From: Planctomycetota bacterium
GTDB lineage: Bacteria; Planctomycetota; Planctomycetia; Pirellulales; Pirellulaceae
DNA length: 15,726 bases
Direction: 5' to 3'
Assembly: GCA_024277285.1 (NCBI GenBank)
Contig: JAJRVM010000328.1
Coordinates: forward strand, 1 to 15,726
Each line of letters starts with the position of its first letter. Position 1 is the stretch's first letter. Shown one piece after another: positions 3,336-15,726 of the stretch. The translations under genes were made by a program, and so were the position numbers. Under the pieces are notes generated by a model. The model was not told where the DNA came from and did no database searches. It saw nothing but the letters and a program-made list of their open reading frames with translations.

Positions 3336-4298
3336 ACAAGCGACCCGCAGCCCCAGGACGACCAGGCACCTGCCCCGAGCGACCCTGTGTCCGAGGTTGA
3401 TAGCGCGTCCGAGGTGGATAGCGTGGCAGAGCAACCTGTTGCCGCTGATAGTGTTGCCGCTGATAGTGTTGCCGCTGATAGTGTTGCCGCTGATAGTGTT
3501 GCCGCTGATAGTGTTGCCGCGAGTGATCGGCAGGAGGAGAGCGAAGCAGGGCAGCCTGAGAGTGAGGAAGCCGGTGACGCCGCCGGCTCGACAGCCGAGG
3601 CCACTGCGGTTGATGACGCGAGCGCATCGTCGGCCGTCGAAACGACGTCGAGCGTAGAGGAACCGAGCATAGAAGAACCGAGCGTAGAAGAACCGAGCGT
3701 AGAAGAGCCGAGCGTAGAAGAGCCGAGCGTAGAAGAGCCGGCCGAAGAGGATGAAAACGTCAAGCAGTGGTACATTCTGAAGGTACAGGTGAATCGCGAG
3801 GAGTCGATTCGTCGCGCGTTGGAGCGGCGGATTAAGGTCGCTGGGCTCGATGAATTTGTAGGTGATATTGTTGTGCCGACCGAGGACGTGGCGGAGTTCA
3901 ACAAGAACGGCAAGCGGCGCATCGTAAAGAAGAAGCTGTATCCCGGCTACATCATGATCAACCTGGTGTTGAATGACGACACGTGGTTTTTGGTACGTGA
4001 GACACCGGGCATTGGGGACTTTACCGGCTCGGCCGGCAAGCCGACGCCGATGGAAGCGCACGAAGTGGCGCGCATTATAAAGGCCTCGGCGGGCGATGCT
4101 TTGGGTGAGGCGCCGGTCAAGACCGCGATCCCATTCAAGCCGGGTGATCGGGTACGCGTCAAGGAAGGGTATTTCGAGAATTTTGAAGGGGATGTCGAGA
4201 CGATTGACGAGGCGAATGGCCGTATCACGGTCATGATCAACATATTCGGTCGTTCGACACCGGTTGAATTAGAACATTGGCAAGTCGAGTCGGTTTGA
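3333..4298 (+). CDS. nusG: Transcription termination/antitermination factor NusG with long repeat-rich N-terminal extension
   Basis: NusG binds the RNA polymerase clamp through its NGN domain and links polymerase to Rho or to ribosomal S10 through its KOW domain. The product is 321 residues, against about 180 in E. coli. The NGN domain starts near residue 144 (KQWYILKV) and includes VVPTEDV and KKLYPGYIMINL. The KOW domain runs from about 268 (FKPGDRVRVKEGYF) through FGRSTPVELE to the end. Residues 1-143 are low complexity and acidic: two SEVDS(A/V) units, five VAADS units (36-60) and about six EEPSV-type units (107-136). The underlying DNA is tandem 15- and 18-bp repeats. The extension is probably disordered; a role for it is not known to me. 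The frame is uninterrupted, so it appears translated. Confidence 0.96.
   Translation: MTSDPQPQDDQAPAPSDPVSEVDSASEVDSVAEQPVAADSVAADSVAADSVAADSVAADSVAASDRQEESEAGQPESEEAGDAAGSTAEATAVDDASASSAVETTSSVEEPSIEEPSVEEPSVEEPSVEEPSVEEPAEEDENVKQWYILKVQVNREESIRRALERRIKVAGLDEFVGDIVVPTEDVAEFNKNGKRRIVKKKLYPGYIMINLVLNDDTWFLVRETPGIGDFTGSAGKPTPMEAHEVARIIKASAGDALGEAPVKTAIPFKPGDRVRVKEGYFENFEGDVETIDEANGRITVMINIFGRSTPVELEHWQVESV
3390..3425. repeat. 18-bp tandem duplication within nusG
   Basis: TCCGAGGTTGATAGCGCG (3390-3407) is followed directly by TCCGAGGTGGATAGCGTG (3408-3425). It keeps the frame and encodes SEVDSA SEVDSV just before the VAADS repeats. Confidence 0.85.
3438..3520. repeat. 15-bp in-frame tandem repeat within nusG (VAADS)
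   Basis: GTTGCCGCTGATAGT occurs five times without mismatch (3438-3512), followed by the first 8 bases of a sixth copy. Each unit encodes VAADS. The perfect identity at synonymous positions points to recent expansion by slippage or unequal exchange. Confidence 0.96.
3650..3739. repeat. 15-bp in-frame tandem repeat within nusG (EEPSV)
   Basis: There are six units of GAGCGTAGAAGARCC type. The first three carry small variants (GTAGAGGAACC, ATAGAAGAACC, GTAGAAGAACC) and the last three, at 3695-3739, are identical. They encode S(V/I)EEP. The gradient from variant to identical units suggests growth at the 3' side. Confidence 0.95.
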
Positions 4299-4791: not shown

Positions 4792-5469
4792 ATGGCGAAA
4801 CCATCAAAACGTTATACGACCTTGGCCAAGACCGTGCCAGAAGTGCCGTTGTCGCTGGCCAAGGCGATCGAACAACTGAAGAAATTTGGCACGACCAAAT
4901 TTGAACAAACTGTTTAAATCCATATGCGGTTGGGAATCGACCCAAAGCAAGCGGAGCAGATCATTCGTGGTTCGATTGTGCTGCCGCACGGGATCGGCAA
5001 GACTCAATGCGTCATCGTGTTTGCCAAAGGCGACTTGGCCAAGGAGGCCGAGGAAGCGGGCGCGGATGAAGTTGGTCAAGAGGAAATGGCCAAGCGCATT
5101 CAGGACGGCTGGGTCGACTTTGATGCCTGCATCGCAACGCCTGACATGATGGGCGTCGTCGGTCGATTGGGGCGTGTTTTGGGACCGCGTGGCTTGATGC
5201 CGTCGCCCCGGAGCGGCACCGTCACTAAGGACGTCACAAAGATTGTCAAAGAGTACAAGGCGGGCAAGGTCGAGTTCCGTAACGACTCGGGCGGTAACGT
5301 GCACGCAGTGGTTGGCAAACTCGGTTTTGACGATGCAAAATTGCAGGAAAATATCGAGGCGTTTATCGATCGAATCACCGGCATGAAGCCAAATGCCGTG
5401 AAGGGGACTTATGTGCGTGGCGTGACCATTTGTGCCACGATGAGTCCCGGGATTCGTATCGCCGCGTAA
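4792..5469 (+). CDS. rplA: 50S ribosomal protein L1, interrupted by an in-frame TAA at codon 42
   Basis: L1 forms the mobile L1 stalk near the ribosomal E site and, in E. coli, represses the rplK-rplA mRNA. Read from ATG 4792 the frame encodes MAKPSKRY through [12 protein letters not shown], then TAA at 4915-4917, then [14 protein letters not shown] and a complete L1 body ([43 protein letters not shown]) to TAA 5467-5469. Ignoring the stop gives 225 residues, normal for the family. The family has Glu or Asp at the stop position, so one G-to-T change of GAA would explain it. An in-frame ATG at 4924, six bases after the stop, could restart a 181-residue product that lacks the KFxxTV RNA-binding segment; no ribosome site precedes it. 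L1 is dispensable in E. coli, so truncation could be tolerated. Sequencing error is the main alternative. Confidence 0.92.
4915..4917 (+). other. Premature in-frame TAA in rplA
   Basis: The codon order is GAA CAA ACT GTT TAA ATC CAT ATG CGG. Family members read on with Glu or Asp at this place. Sequence similarity to L1 is continuous and in the same frame on both sides, so this is a substitution and not a frameshift. Confidence 0.95.
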
Positions 5470-6095: not shown

Positions 6096-6444
6096 CCACA
6101 CAATCCCAGCAACTCGATCCACGGGGGATTTGAGTTTGCTGAACGCCGGCAGGTCGGCGGCCAGACTGCCGACACTGCATTTTGCCGACACTGCATTTTG
6201 CCGACACTGCATTTTGCCGACACTGCATTTTGCCGACACTGTGTCTTGCCGATACCGCAGATGGCCACTACGGAAGACGACCCATACTGACGAGAGTTAC
6301 GAAACCTAAAGATTTTGGGCAGCCGCGAGCGTCGCTCTGGTACTGCCGAGATACCATTCAACGTTCATCATAACCGGTACGCTGCAGCGATTGGTGTCGC
6401 TCTCGCGTGACGCCGGAGTATTTCGAGAAAGGGAACCATCCGCC
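6096..6444. other. 349-bp non-coding spacer between rplJ and rplL
   Basis: No protein gene is supported; open frames across it are translations of the 16-bp repeat at 6168-6247. The right part (6248-6444) holds no clear promoter. A 5-bp inverted pair TGGTA/TACCA (6338-6356) is too weak to call. The usual rplJ-rplL spacer is much shorter, so much of this is probably accreted sequence or an rplL-specific leader. Confidence 0.6.
6168..6247. repeat. 16-bp tandem repeat in the rplJ-rplL spacer
   Basis: GCCGACACTGCATTTT occurs four times without mismatch (6168-6231). A fifth unit ending GTGTCTT (6232-6247) and a decayed start of a sixth (GCCGATACCGC) follow. The 16-bp period is not a multiple of three, in keeping with a non-coding position. 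Confidence 0.96.
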
Positions 6445-6926: not shown

Positions 6927-6978
6927 AGAGGTTGAACGCCGCTTGATTTTCAACATCCTGCAGTGCAAGCGTTTGTTC

Positions 6979-7026
6979 GTGCTTGTGTTGGCGCGTGCTG
7001 GTGTTAGCGCGTGCTGGTGTTGGCTT
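6979..7026. repeat. 16-bp tandem repeat upstream of rpoB
   Basis: There are three units of GTGCTGGTGTTAGCGC type at 6979-6994, 6995-7010 and 7011-7026, with two to three differences between copies. This is the same period as the repeat in the rplJ-rplL spacer but an unrelated sequence. Confidence 0.88.
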
Positions 7027-11164: not shown

Positions 11165-14100
11165 ATGACCATCAGCGAAAGCTCATATGATCGAATCAAC
11201 GACTACGCTTCGGTCAAGATCAGCCTCGCCCGACCGCACGACATTCGCAGCTGGTCTTTTGGTGAGGTAAAAAAGCCCGAGACGATTAACTACCGCACCT
11301 ACCGGCCGGAGAAGGATGGCCTCTTTTGCGAACGGATTTTCGGTCCTGAAAAGGATTGGGAATGTGCCTGCGGCAAGTATCGTGGCATGAAGTACAAGGG
11401 AATGATCTGCGACCGCTGCGGTGTCAAAGTGACGCATTCGCGCGTGCGGCGCAAGCGAATGGGGCACATTGAATTGGCCGCTCCGGTCGTTCACATCTGG
11501 TTTTTCAAGGCGATGCCAAGCCGGTTGGGCAATCTGCTGAACATGAAGACGACGAGCCTGGAGAAAGTGATCTACTTGCAGGATTACGTCGTCGTCGACC
11601 CGGGCGAAACGGAACTGGAAAAACAACAACTGCTGACCGAAGAAGAGTATCGATCGGCGCGTGAGCATTACGGTGAAGGTAGCTTTCAGGCCGACATGGG
11701 CGCCGAAGCGGTGCGGGAACTGTTACGGTCACTCGACCTGGTAACGCTCTCGGTCGACCTGCGCAAGGAATTGAGCGAAACGCGTTCAAAACAAAAGACC
11801 AAGGACCTTACCAATCGGCTGAAGATCGTTGAGGCGATTCGGGACAGCGATAATCAGCCTGAGTGGATGGTATTGGACGCGATCCCGGTGATTCCACCCG
11901 ACCTGCGTCCCCTGGTCCTGCTCGATTCCGGCAACTTCGCGACCAGCGACTTGAATGACTTATACCGACGCATCATCAACCGAAACAACCGTCTTCGCAA
12001 GTTGGTCGACCTCAACGCTCCGGAAGTGATTATTCGCAACGAAAAGCGAATGTTATAGCAATCGGTCGACGCGTTGTTCGACAACAATCGCTGCAAACGC
12101 CCGGTGTTGGGTAGCAGCAACCGCCCCTTGAAATCATTGACCGACATGATCAAGGGCAAGCAAGGGCGTTTCCGTGAAAACCTGCTGGGCAAGCGAGTCG
12201 ATTACTCGGCACGGAGCGTTATCGTGGTCGGCCCGACGCTGAAGTTGCATCAGTGTGGTTTGCCGAAGAAAATTGCGCTCGAGTTGTACCAGCCTTTCAT
12301 CATTCGCAAGCTGAAAGAACTGGGGCACGCTGACACGATCAAGAGTGCCAAGAAGATGTTGGAGCGGAAGGACGAGGAGGTGTGGGACATTTTGGAGGCC
12401 GTGATCCAGAACCACCCCGTCCTGCTGAATCGTGCTCCGACCTTGCACCGCATGGGCATCCAGGCATTTGAACCGATCTTGGTCGAGGGTAACGCCATTC
12501 ACTTGCACCCGCTGGTCTGCAAGGGGTTCAATGCGGACTTCGACGGTGATCAGATGGCAGTTCACCTGCCACTTTCGATCGAAGCTCAGGTGGAAGCCCA
12601 CACCTTGATGATGTCGACCAACAATATTTTCGCTCCCTCCAACGGTCGTCCCATCATGAGCCCGTCTCAGGATACGGTGATGGGATGCTACTTCATCACG
12701 CTCGTAATCCCAGGGCATAAAGGTGAAGGAATGCAGTTCGCAACCCTCGAGGAAGCGGACCTGGCTTTCGCGCTCGGCGCGATCGACTTGCATGCGGAAA
12801 TCGAAGTTCGGTTGCCGAAGAAGACGCGTGCACGCTCTGGCGAGGAAACTCGAACGGAGCCGGGCGTGCGTGTCAAAACCAGCTACGGTCGCGTGCTCTT
12901 CAATTTGATGCTCCCCAAGGGGATGGACTTCTACAACATGGCGATGCGTGGTGGTGACCTGGCAATGGCCATTTCAGATTGCTATCACACGCTCGGACGG
13001 AGCGCCACGATCGACCTGCTCGATGATATGAACCAACTTGGGTTCCGTGAAAGTACGCGTAGCGGCCTGTCATTCGCGACCGACGATCTGGTAACGCCGG
13101 CCGCAAAGACGAAGATCATTGCGGAAAGCGAAAAGAAGGTCCTGCGATTTCGCAAACTGTACAACAACGGCGTGATCACCGAGGCGGAACGGTACCACCA
13201 GGTGCTTGATACCTGGACACACGCACGTGAACGGATCACGACGGAAATGATGTCCGCGATGAAGGCCGACGATCGAGGGCTGATCTATGTGAACCCCGTG
13301 TTCCTGATGGCTCACTCCGGTGCTCGTGGTGGCGTTGAACAGATTCGCCAACTGGCCGGGATGCGTGGACTCATGGCCAAGCCAACCGGGGAAATCATCG
13401 AAACCCCCATTAAGGCGAATTTTCGGGAAGGCCTGTCGGTGCTCGAGTATTTCAGCTCGACCCATGGAGCGCGTAAAGGTTTGGCCGACACGGCGCTCAA
13501 GACCGCCGACTCGGGTTACTTGACGCGAAAGCTCGCCGATGTGGCCCAAAACGTCGTGGTAACCATGTACGATTGTGGTACGACGCAGGGAATCACCAAG
13601 GGGGTGATTTATCGCGGCGAGAAGGTTGAAGTGCGGTTGGCCGATGCGGTCAAGGGCCGTGTCAGCCGACAAAACATCGTCAATCCGGTCACCGATGAAT
13701 TGATCGTGCACGAGAGCGAAATGATCACGCCCGAAATCGCGCGAAAAATCGAATCGCTCGGCCTCGAAAAGATCCAGGTGCGCAGCCCGATGACGTGTGA
13801 CGCGTCACTCGGTGTCTGCCGTTGTTGCTACGGAATGGATTTGTCGACCGGCAATCTGGTCGAAGAAGGCATGGCCGTCGGCATTATTGCCGCGCAGAGC
13901 ATCGGTGAGCCGGGGACGCAGCTGACGATGCGGACGTTCCATATCGGCGGTACCGTGAACATGAGCGTCGAGGAAAGTGAGACTCGCGCCAAGAAAGATG
14001 GGACCGCCAGCTTTACGCGGATGCGGTTGGTCCGCAACGCGGAAGGTAAGGAGATCGTGCTGACCCGCAACGGCGAGATTTCGATCCTCGATGCCAAGGG

Positions 14101-15726
14101 ACGTGAGATCGAGAAGTGCGAAGTACCGACCGGAGCCGTCTTGATGGTGCAAGAAGGCGATCCCGTCAAAGCCGGCTCCGTGCTTTGCGAATGGGACCCG
14201 CACAGTATCCCGATCCTGGCCGAGAAGGCGGGTAAAGTTCGCTATGAGGATCTTGTCGAGGGCGAAACACTCCGCACCGAGCCAGACCAGAGCGGGCACG
14301 TGCGACGCATGGTCATGGATCTTAAGGGCGATCTGCATCCGCAAGTTGTGCTCGAAGATACCGATGGCAGGCCGTTGGACGTCTATTACCTGCCGGAACG
14401 AGCCTACATTGAAGTGACCGAGGGCGAGGAAGTACCCGCCGGTGCCGTCCTGGCCAAAATGCCGCGTGAATCCTCGGGGATTTCAGACATCACCGGTGGC
14501 CTGCCGCGCGTCACGGAGATTTTCGAGGCACGTAAGCCGAAAGATCCCGCGGTCATCGCCGAAGTTGATGGCGTCGTCGAGATTACCGGCAAGAAGCAAC
14601 GTGGCAAACGGACGATCGTCGTTCGCAGTGAAACGGGAATCGAACGCGAACACCTCGTTCCACACGGAAAACGGTTCCTCGTCCACGCAGAAGATTTTGT
14701 CAAAGCAGGTCAGGCGCTGGTCGATGGCCCATTGGTCCCCCACGACATCCTTCGCGTCTCGGGTGAGGAAGAAGTACAGCAATACCTGGTACATGAAGTG
14801 CAGCAGGTCTATCGCAGTCAGCGCGTGGAAATCAATGATAAACACATTGAGATCATTATCGCACGCATGCTGCGAAAGGTCCGAGTCGAAAATGCTGGCG
14901 ATACTAACTTGCTGCCAGGTCTGGTGATGGATCGGTTCGAGTACCGACAGGTGAACCGTGACCTCCGTGGTTGTGGCAAGGTTTCCGGTAAGGGCGACAG
15001 CGAGTTCGAGGAAGATGCGATCGTGCCGATCGATGCGATCGAGCAGGCCAATGTGCAAATCGAACGTCTTGGCGGTGCGCCGGCGAAGCATGTCCGGCCC
15101 AAGCCGGCCGTCGCCAGCACCCAATTGCTCGGTATTACCAAAGCGGCCGTGCAAAGCTCCAGCTTTATCTCGGCAGCCAGCTTCCAGGAAACCACGAAAG
15201 TACTGACCGAAGCCGCTCTGGCCGGTAAAATCGATAACCTGGTCGGATTGAAAGAAAATGTTATCCTCGGCCATCTGATTCCGGCCGGAACCGGGTTCCA
15301 CACGTTCCAGGCGTCGGAAGTCCGATATCGTCCCGAAGTGCTGCAAAAGATGGCAGCTGAAGAAGATCAGGCGCTCGTTACCAGCTTCCCACTGCTGCAA
15401 TCGGGTGAAGGCGATGGGGAATCGCAAGGCGGCGATTCGGCTGGCAGCAGAGGAGAAAGCACGCTCGCTGAACTGATGGGTGACACGTCCTCGCCAAACG
15501 ATGGCGCTGAAACCGGTCCCGAAATCGGTTCGGTCACCGAAGGACTGACGATGGCAGACTTGCAAGGCTTGGCCGACAAGTCGCTCGGCGAAGGGTCAGC
15601 ACGCGAGGAACCGGCAGCAGAGGAACCGGCAGCGGAGGAACCGGCAGCGGAGGAACCGGTAGCAGAAGAACCGGTAGCAGAAGAACCGGTAGCAGAAGAA
15701 CCGGTAGCAGAAGAACCGGTAGCAGA
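11165..15726 (+). CDS. rpoC: DNA-directed RNA polymerase subunit beta-prime, partial, with an in-frame TAG at codon 298 and a repeat tail
   Basis: Beta-prime carries the catalytic magnesium site and the clamp. Reading from ATG 11165, the zinc ribbon has C67, C69, C82 and C85. The clamp coiled coil [12 protein letters not shown]...[10 protein letters not shown] leads straight into TAG (12056-12058). The same frame then continues [15 protein letters not shown] and is open to the window end, over 1,220 codons. It includes the catalytic NADFDGDQM (456-464), bridge-helix region [15 protein letters not shown], second zinc site C804, C878, C885 and C888, trigger-loop region [13 protein letters not shown], and the C-terminal [13 protein letters not shown]. 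coli has Gln300 at the stop position, so a C-to-T change of CAG explains it. Conserved core ends near residue 1400. A Ser/Gly/Glu tail follows, with [10 protein letters not shown] repeats from codon 1481 that run off the window. A 297-residue fragment alone could not be functional, so error, suppression or a split subunit must be considered. Confidence 0.95.
12056..12058 (+). other. Premature in-frame TAG in rpoC
   Basis: The codon order is CGA ATG TTA TAG CAA TCG GTC GAC. Homologues read RMLQ followed by (E/Q)(A/S)VDAL, so the stop replaces a conserved Gln. The numbering offset to E. coli is two residues on both sides, which excludes an indel. The next in-frame ATG (12146) has no ribosome site. 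Confidence 0.95.
15605..15726. repeat. 15-bp in-frame tandem repeat in the rpoC 3' region ([10 protein letters not shown])
   Basis: Eight units of GAGGAACCGGCAGCA / GAAGAACCGGTAGCA type occupy 15605-15724 and the array continues past the window. Units 1-3 encode EEPAA and units 4-8 EEPVA. Units 5-8 are identical, so the array appears to have grown toward its 3' side. Confidence 0.96.

Follow-up and report, generated by a model that had tools for sequence, protein, structure and literature searches.

Two in-frame stop codons in essential genes of a short planctomycete contig, probably base-level errors

Stop codons in rpoC and rplA

How can the gene for an essential protein contain a stop codon and otherwise look sound? 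RpoC, the beta-prime subunit of RNA polymerase, is an established essential protein, and its gene carries an in-frame TAG in the stretch of DNA analyzed here (hereafter the window, a contig of 15,726 bases). A set of tRNA genes, tuf, secE, nusG, rplK, rplA, rplJ, rplL, rpoB, and most of rpoC all lie on one strand of the window, which ends before the 3′ end of rpoC is reached. The closest relatives of the encoded RpoC are 87–89% identical and, where named, come from metagenome genomes of Pirellulaceae bacteria.

The rpoC frame begins with the ATG at 11165 on the (+) strand and extends over 297 codons to the TAG (11165..12058 with the stop included), so that the TAG at 12056..12058 is codon 298, as an earlier reading of the sequence only had stated. 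The remaining frame (12059..15726, [+] strand; first listed start codon, TTG at 12074) is open until the window ends, and with the TAG read as Gln, it is the sole stop in the 1,520 codons within the window. The earlier description of rpoC as otherwise intact thus holds up to the window end, beyond which the 3′ end of the gene lies. Aligned to the beta-prime model of 1,147 positions, the two pieces follow one another, covering 2–281 and 284–1074. Because query residues 11–297 align with residues 14–299 of the E. coli protein, the TAG stands at the site of E. coli Gln300, again in agreement with the sequence-only reading, and we take this site to lie in the clamp coiled coil. A comparison with sister genomes, which that reading had proposed, revealed a Gln codon at this site in 80 of 80 genome loci (66 CAG and 14 CAA) and Gln in all 150 other rows of the RpoC alignment (120 proteins and 30 loci), with a stop in none of them. 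The codon that precedes the TAG (the two codons span 12053–12058) is TTA, a rare Leu codon in the window (9 of 358 Leu codons) that occupies this position in only 1 of the 80 loci, and two adjacent bases may have changed together here.

The rpoC stop had been regarded as a lone lesion, which proved incorrect, as rplA, the gene for ribosomal protein L1, is interrupted too. Its frame (4792..5469, [+] strand; 225 sense or stop codons plus the terminal TAA) contains an in-frame TAA at codon 42 (4915..4917). Among 120 listed L1 proteins, the 119 others covering the site all have Glu, and the remaining one is the window's own fragment (P0271). At the nucleotide level, the aligned codon specifies Glu in 44 of 52 loci and is a different sense codon in the other 8, and a check of 20 relatives showed no stop there in any of them. 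With the TAA read as Glu, L1 is 92% identical over its whole length to the closest listed L1 protein (P0242), which has Glu at the site. The window's L1 also has Cys at residue 73 (R73C), compared with Arg in 118 of the 119 others, and it deviates at three columns that are at least 98% conserved, the highest number for any of the 120 rows. P0271 forms a single-member cluster; hence, clustering found no second sample of the species.

The window also contains short tandem arrays with units of 15–16 bases, located at 111–176, 3437–3520, 3649–3751, 6167–6252, 6978–7024, and 15608–15726, some of them intergenic and others in frame within nusG and the rpoC tail. The last of these, a 15-bp array in the 3′ part of rpoC (15608..15726, [+] strand), reaches the end of the contig, and we infer that a contig end inside such a repeat is typical of short-read assembly.

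Stops and broken frames in related genomes

Stops within the conserved core of these genes proved rare in loci from named genomes: 0 of 80 for rpoC, 0 of 52 for rplA, 0 of 75 for rpoB, and 1 of 49 for tuf. The single case (L002, from a named metagenome genome) is a TAG at tuf codon 153 (locus position 737), a site occupied by Glu codons in the four relatives compared. Stops did occur in 11 rpoC loci, every one in the variable tail (query position of at least 1,406), as well as in nusG (three loci) and rplJ (two loci), where they are confined to the extreme end or to a leading part that aligns poorly. A search of the family matched RpoC in 230 of 241 genomes; stops were placed for the 30 fetched loci among the matches listed, and 1 of these 30 has a stop in the rpoC core. 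Two stops in one contig are therefore out of the ordinary and call for a common cause.

Frames that break within rpoC are a different matter. Among 120 listed N-terminal RpoC fragments, 104 were testable by length, and 32 of these 104 truncated records finish with residues encoded by a different frame of rpoC itself, indicating that interruptions of the rpoC frame are common in assembled sequences; since the records were selected by length, this fraction is not a rate. Four such records from related planctomycetes (P0122, P0123, P0124, and P0131, on contigs of 155–542 kb) resemble the window in that a conserved rpoC frame terminates early while the gene continues. However, they carry frameshifts, whereas the window has substitutions to stops without a frameshift. 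The breaks in these four are presumably sequence errors. In P0122, P0131, P0142, and P0160, the tail in the other frame starts at residues 303–306, just past the position of the window's TAG, and this coincidence could reflect either a recurrent error site or chance. A likely frameshift was also seen in the rpoB of one locus (L061), which matches in two frames (query residues 1–874 and 894–1239).

The one family locus with a core rpoC stop belongs to a related, fragmented genome, G079, which is among the three best RpoC matches in the family search. G079 resembles the window in having in-frame stops in essential genes with frames conserved on both sides, but the stops lie at other sites and in other genes, and its rplA is free of them. 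Specifically, G079 has a TAG at query codon 962 of rpoC (L083) and both a TAA and a TAG in gyrA (L150); for the 19 other genomes compared, in two of which gyrA is partial, no gyrA stop was listed. No internal stop was found in its rplA or alaS, and among the matches listed for valS, none from G079 exceeded the cut-off. The contigs of G079 are short (4,875 bases for that of L083), and its RpoC deviates at 10 columns with a conservation of at least 98%, a high number among rows of similar distance. This suits an error-prone assembly, although divergence could produce the same. Three of its contigs (C201, C271, and C1082; L147, L148, and L149) hold dense tRNA arrays with 26, 4, and 10 genes by ARAGORN in 6.8, 6.8, and 3.6 kb, respectively, an arrangement reminiscent of tRNA arrays of the mobile or phage type.

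We also scanned by codon score for stops flanked by coding sequence. In G079, 361 kb contained 8 candidates (four TAG, three TAA, and one TGA, including the rpoC and gyrA stops); the 48 control loci, with a total of 913 kb, contained 9, and the window 2. The controls were loci from named genomes with 50–60% GC; 9 of 37 G079 stretches (read as N) and the three tRNA-array contigs were excluded, and some of the candidates are gene boundaries by eye. An earlier version of the scan, which returned 13 candidates for G079 and 94 for another genome, G063, was dropped, as those from G063 were judged to be mostly anti-sense frames. The stops in G079 are too sparse for a changed code.

Genetic code and the possibility of read-through or a divided beta-prime subunit

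The gene ends in the window bear directly on the meaning of TAG and TAA. TAA terminates tuf, rplA, and rplL; TAG terminates secE, rplK, and rplJ; and TGA terminates nusG and rpoB. Since TAA or TAG ends six of the eight complete genes, neither codon is reassigned, and a code of this kind was ruled out. A known case of such reassignment is found in crAss-like phages, in which TAG is reported to be reassigned to glutamine (genetic code 15; PMC9523058). In comparison with these phages, the window is similar in that its TAG stands where relatives have Gln but differs in that TAG and TAA end most of its genes and the rplA stop replaces Glu.

Neither programmed read-through nor suppression gained positive support. 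We rejected programmed read-through, as the stop is not kept in relatives, which uniformly have Gln at the rpoC site. The other possibility, which the sequence-only reading had raised for the rpoC stop, is a natural suppressor tRNA (both TAA and TAG would be read by one of the ochre type) or some other form of read-through, here yielding full-length beta-prime and L1. Both stops are indeed TAA or TAG, the frames downstream of them are conserved, G079 likewise has internal TAG and TAA codons, and the RNA 3′ of the rplA stop folds slightly better than shuffled sequences (z of −1.2 and −1.9). Nevertheless, the same codons end six of the eight complete window genes, where the next in-frame stop lies 3 to 91 codons further on, and the lack of TGA among the lesions is expected by chance (see below). 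No CTA or TTA anticodon was found among the five tRNAs of the window, which are its only Rfam matches, or among the 74 tRNA genes identified by ARAGORN on every G079 contig with a listed tRNA match; 2 of these 74 lack a defined anticodon, and the genome may be incomplete. The RNA 3′ of the rpoC TAG shows no structure, as it folds no better than shuffled sequences (z of +0.7), and a stop at rplA codon 42 is shared by none of the 20 relatives compared. Taken with these results, suppression or read-through is very unlikely.

A broader version of the same idea would place the window (rpoC and rplA) and G079 (rpoC and gyrA) in a planctomycete lineage that tolerates internal TAG and TAA codons in essential genes, read as sense by a suppressor that acts weakly or conditionally, with most genes still terminating at these codons. 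We give this idea very little credence. Were stop read-through of this kind real, a free-living bacterium would rely on it for a ribosomal protein and for an essential subunit of its RNA polymerase, and recoding of this form would be very unusual.

A further proposal was that beta-prime is made in two pieces, which here would meet at codon 298 through re-initiation, with L1 arising likewise from the ATG at 4924. Start codons do follow both stops (TTG at 12074 in rpoC and the ATG in rplA, six bases past the TAA). However, re-initiation at the first listed rpoC start would lose five conserved residues after codon 298, and the cut would sever what is presumably the clamp coiled coil. None of the 120 listed RpoC fragments has 297 residues, and a stop at codon 298 is absent from the 80 loci and the 150 other rows, leaving the proposal without positive support from any relative. 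The arrangement known from cyanobacteria, in which rpoC1 and rpoC2 encode beta-prime as two pieces, is similar in that respect, but the window's stop falls in the middle of the rpoC1 model and not at the rpoC1 end; both pieces match within that model (4–300 and 303–560 of 619 positions). We therefore rejected a split of the cyanobacterial type, and the earlier remark that the cut site differs from it is borne out. A beta-prime divided at codon 298 in any other manner is most improbable.

Probable base-level error and the alternative of real mutation

Two nonsense codons in two essential genes of a single 15.7-kb contig, without a frameshift, are best explained by base-level error, and the second stop, in rplA, favors such a general cause over a special amber site in beta-prime. 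Substitutions from the reads, the library, or the assembly would have created both stops in one short metagenome-type contig. The two lesions differ, as Gln became TAG in rpoC and Glu became TAA in rplA. Considering all possible single-base nonsense changes in the window's nine genes, 53% yield TAG, 34% TAA, and 12% TGA (TAG and TAA together, 88%), with Glu the commonest source (392 of 1,408) and Gln accounting for 142 of 1,408. Both the kinds of stop and the residues that they replace thus match random change, and the absence of TGA is uninformative. The scattered stops of a similar kind in G079, the frequent frame breaks in assembled rpoC genes, and the contig end within the 15-bp array also speak for error.

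Next to the nonsense changes, we looked at missense changes. Only 3 of 1,413 conserved columns carry an odd residue (T131M in rplK, A104S in rplL, and G711E in rpoB), and a general decay of the contig was accordingly not seen. The expected ratio of missense changes at conserved columns to nonsense changes is 6.5, compared with the observed 3 to 2; the probability of at least two nonsense changes among five is 0.13, falling to 0.018 (two of two) should all three missense changes be genuine. Compared with closer relatives, RpoC has two further odd residues (F138L and N678H). At columns at least 98% conserved, RpoC taken alone shows no excess of deviations (two, set against 0–11 in 39 rows of similar distance), which counts against error, as does the finding that no frameshift was seen in the window's genes; at the 95% conservation level, RpoC has 15 deviations, towards the upper end of its peers.

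The paucity of odd missense changes is what a recent loss would give, and the stops might instead be real mutations in the sampled cells, either in a cluster copy that is decaying or is one of two, or in a nonsense-bearing clone, with working copies elsewhere. As the tuf stop in L002 illustrates, other assemblies contain in-frame stops as well, perhaps in genes with more than one copy, as is often the case for tuf. It would be unusual, however, for the cluster to be present twice, since each of the six genomes with the closest loci has one full-length rpoC match (one of them with an additional short, weak match). Besides the essential nature of RpoC, two independent lesions without a frameshift or deletion would not be the usual look of decay. 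Real mutation is, in our assessment, unlikely.

Judging from the pattern of the lesions, both stops are very probably base-level errors, in line with what the sequence-only reading had named as the simplest explanation for the rpoC stop. The main lesson of this case is that when a metagenome contig has a stop within an essential gene, the neighboring genes should be considered too, as another lesion close by suggests a problem of sequence quality. The living cell, a Pirellulaceae-like planctomycete, would then have an ordinary rpoC and an ordinary rplA.
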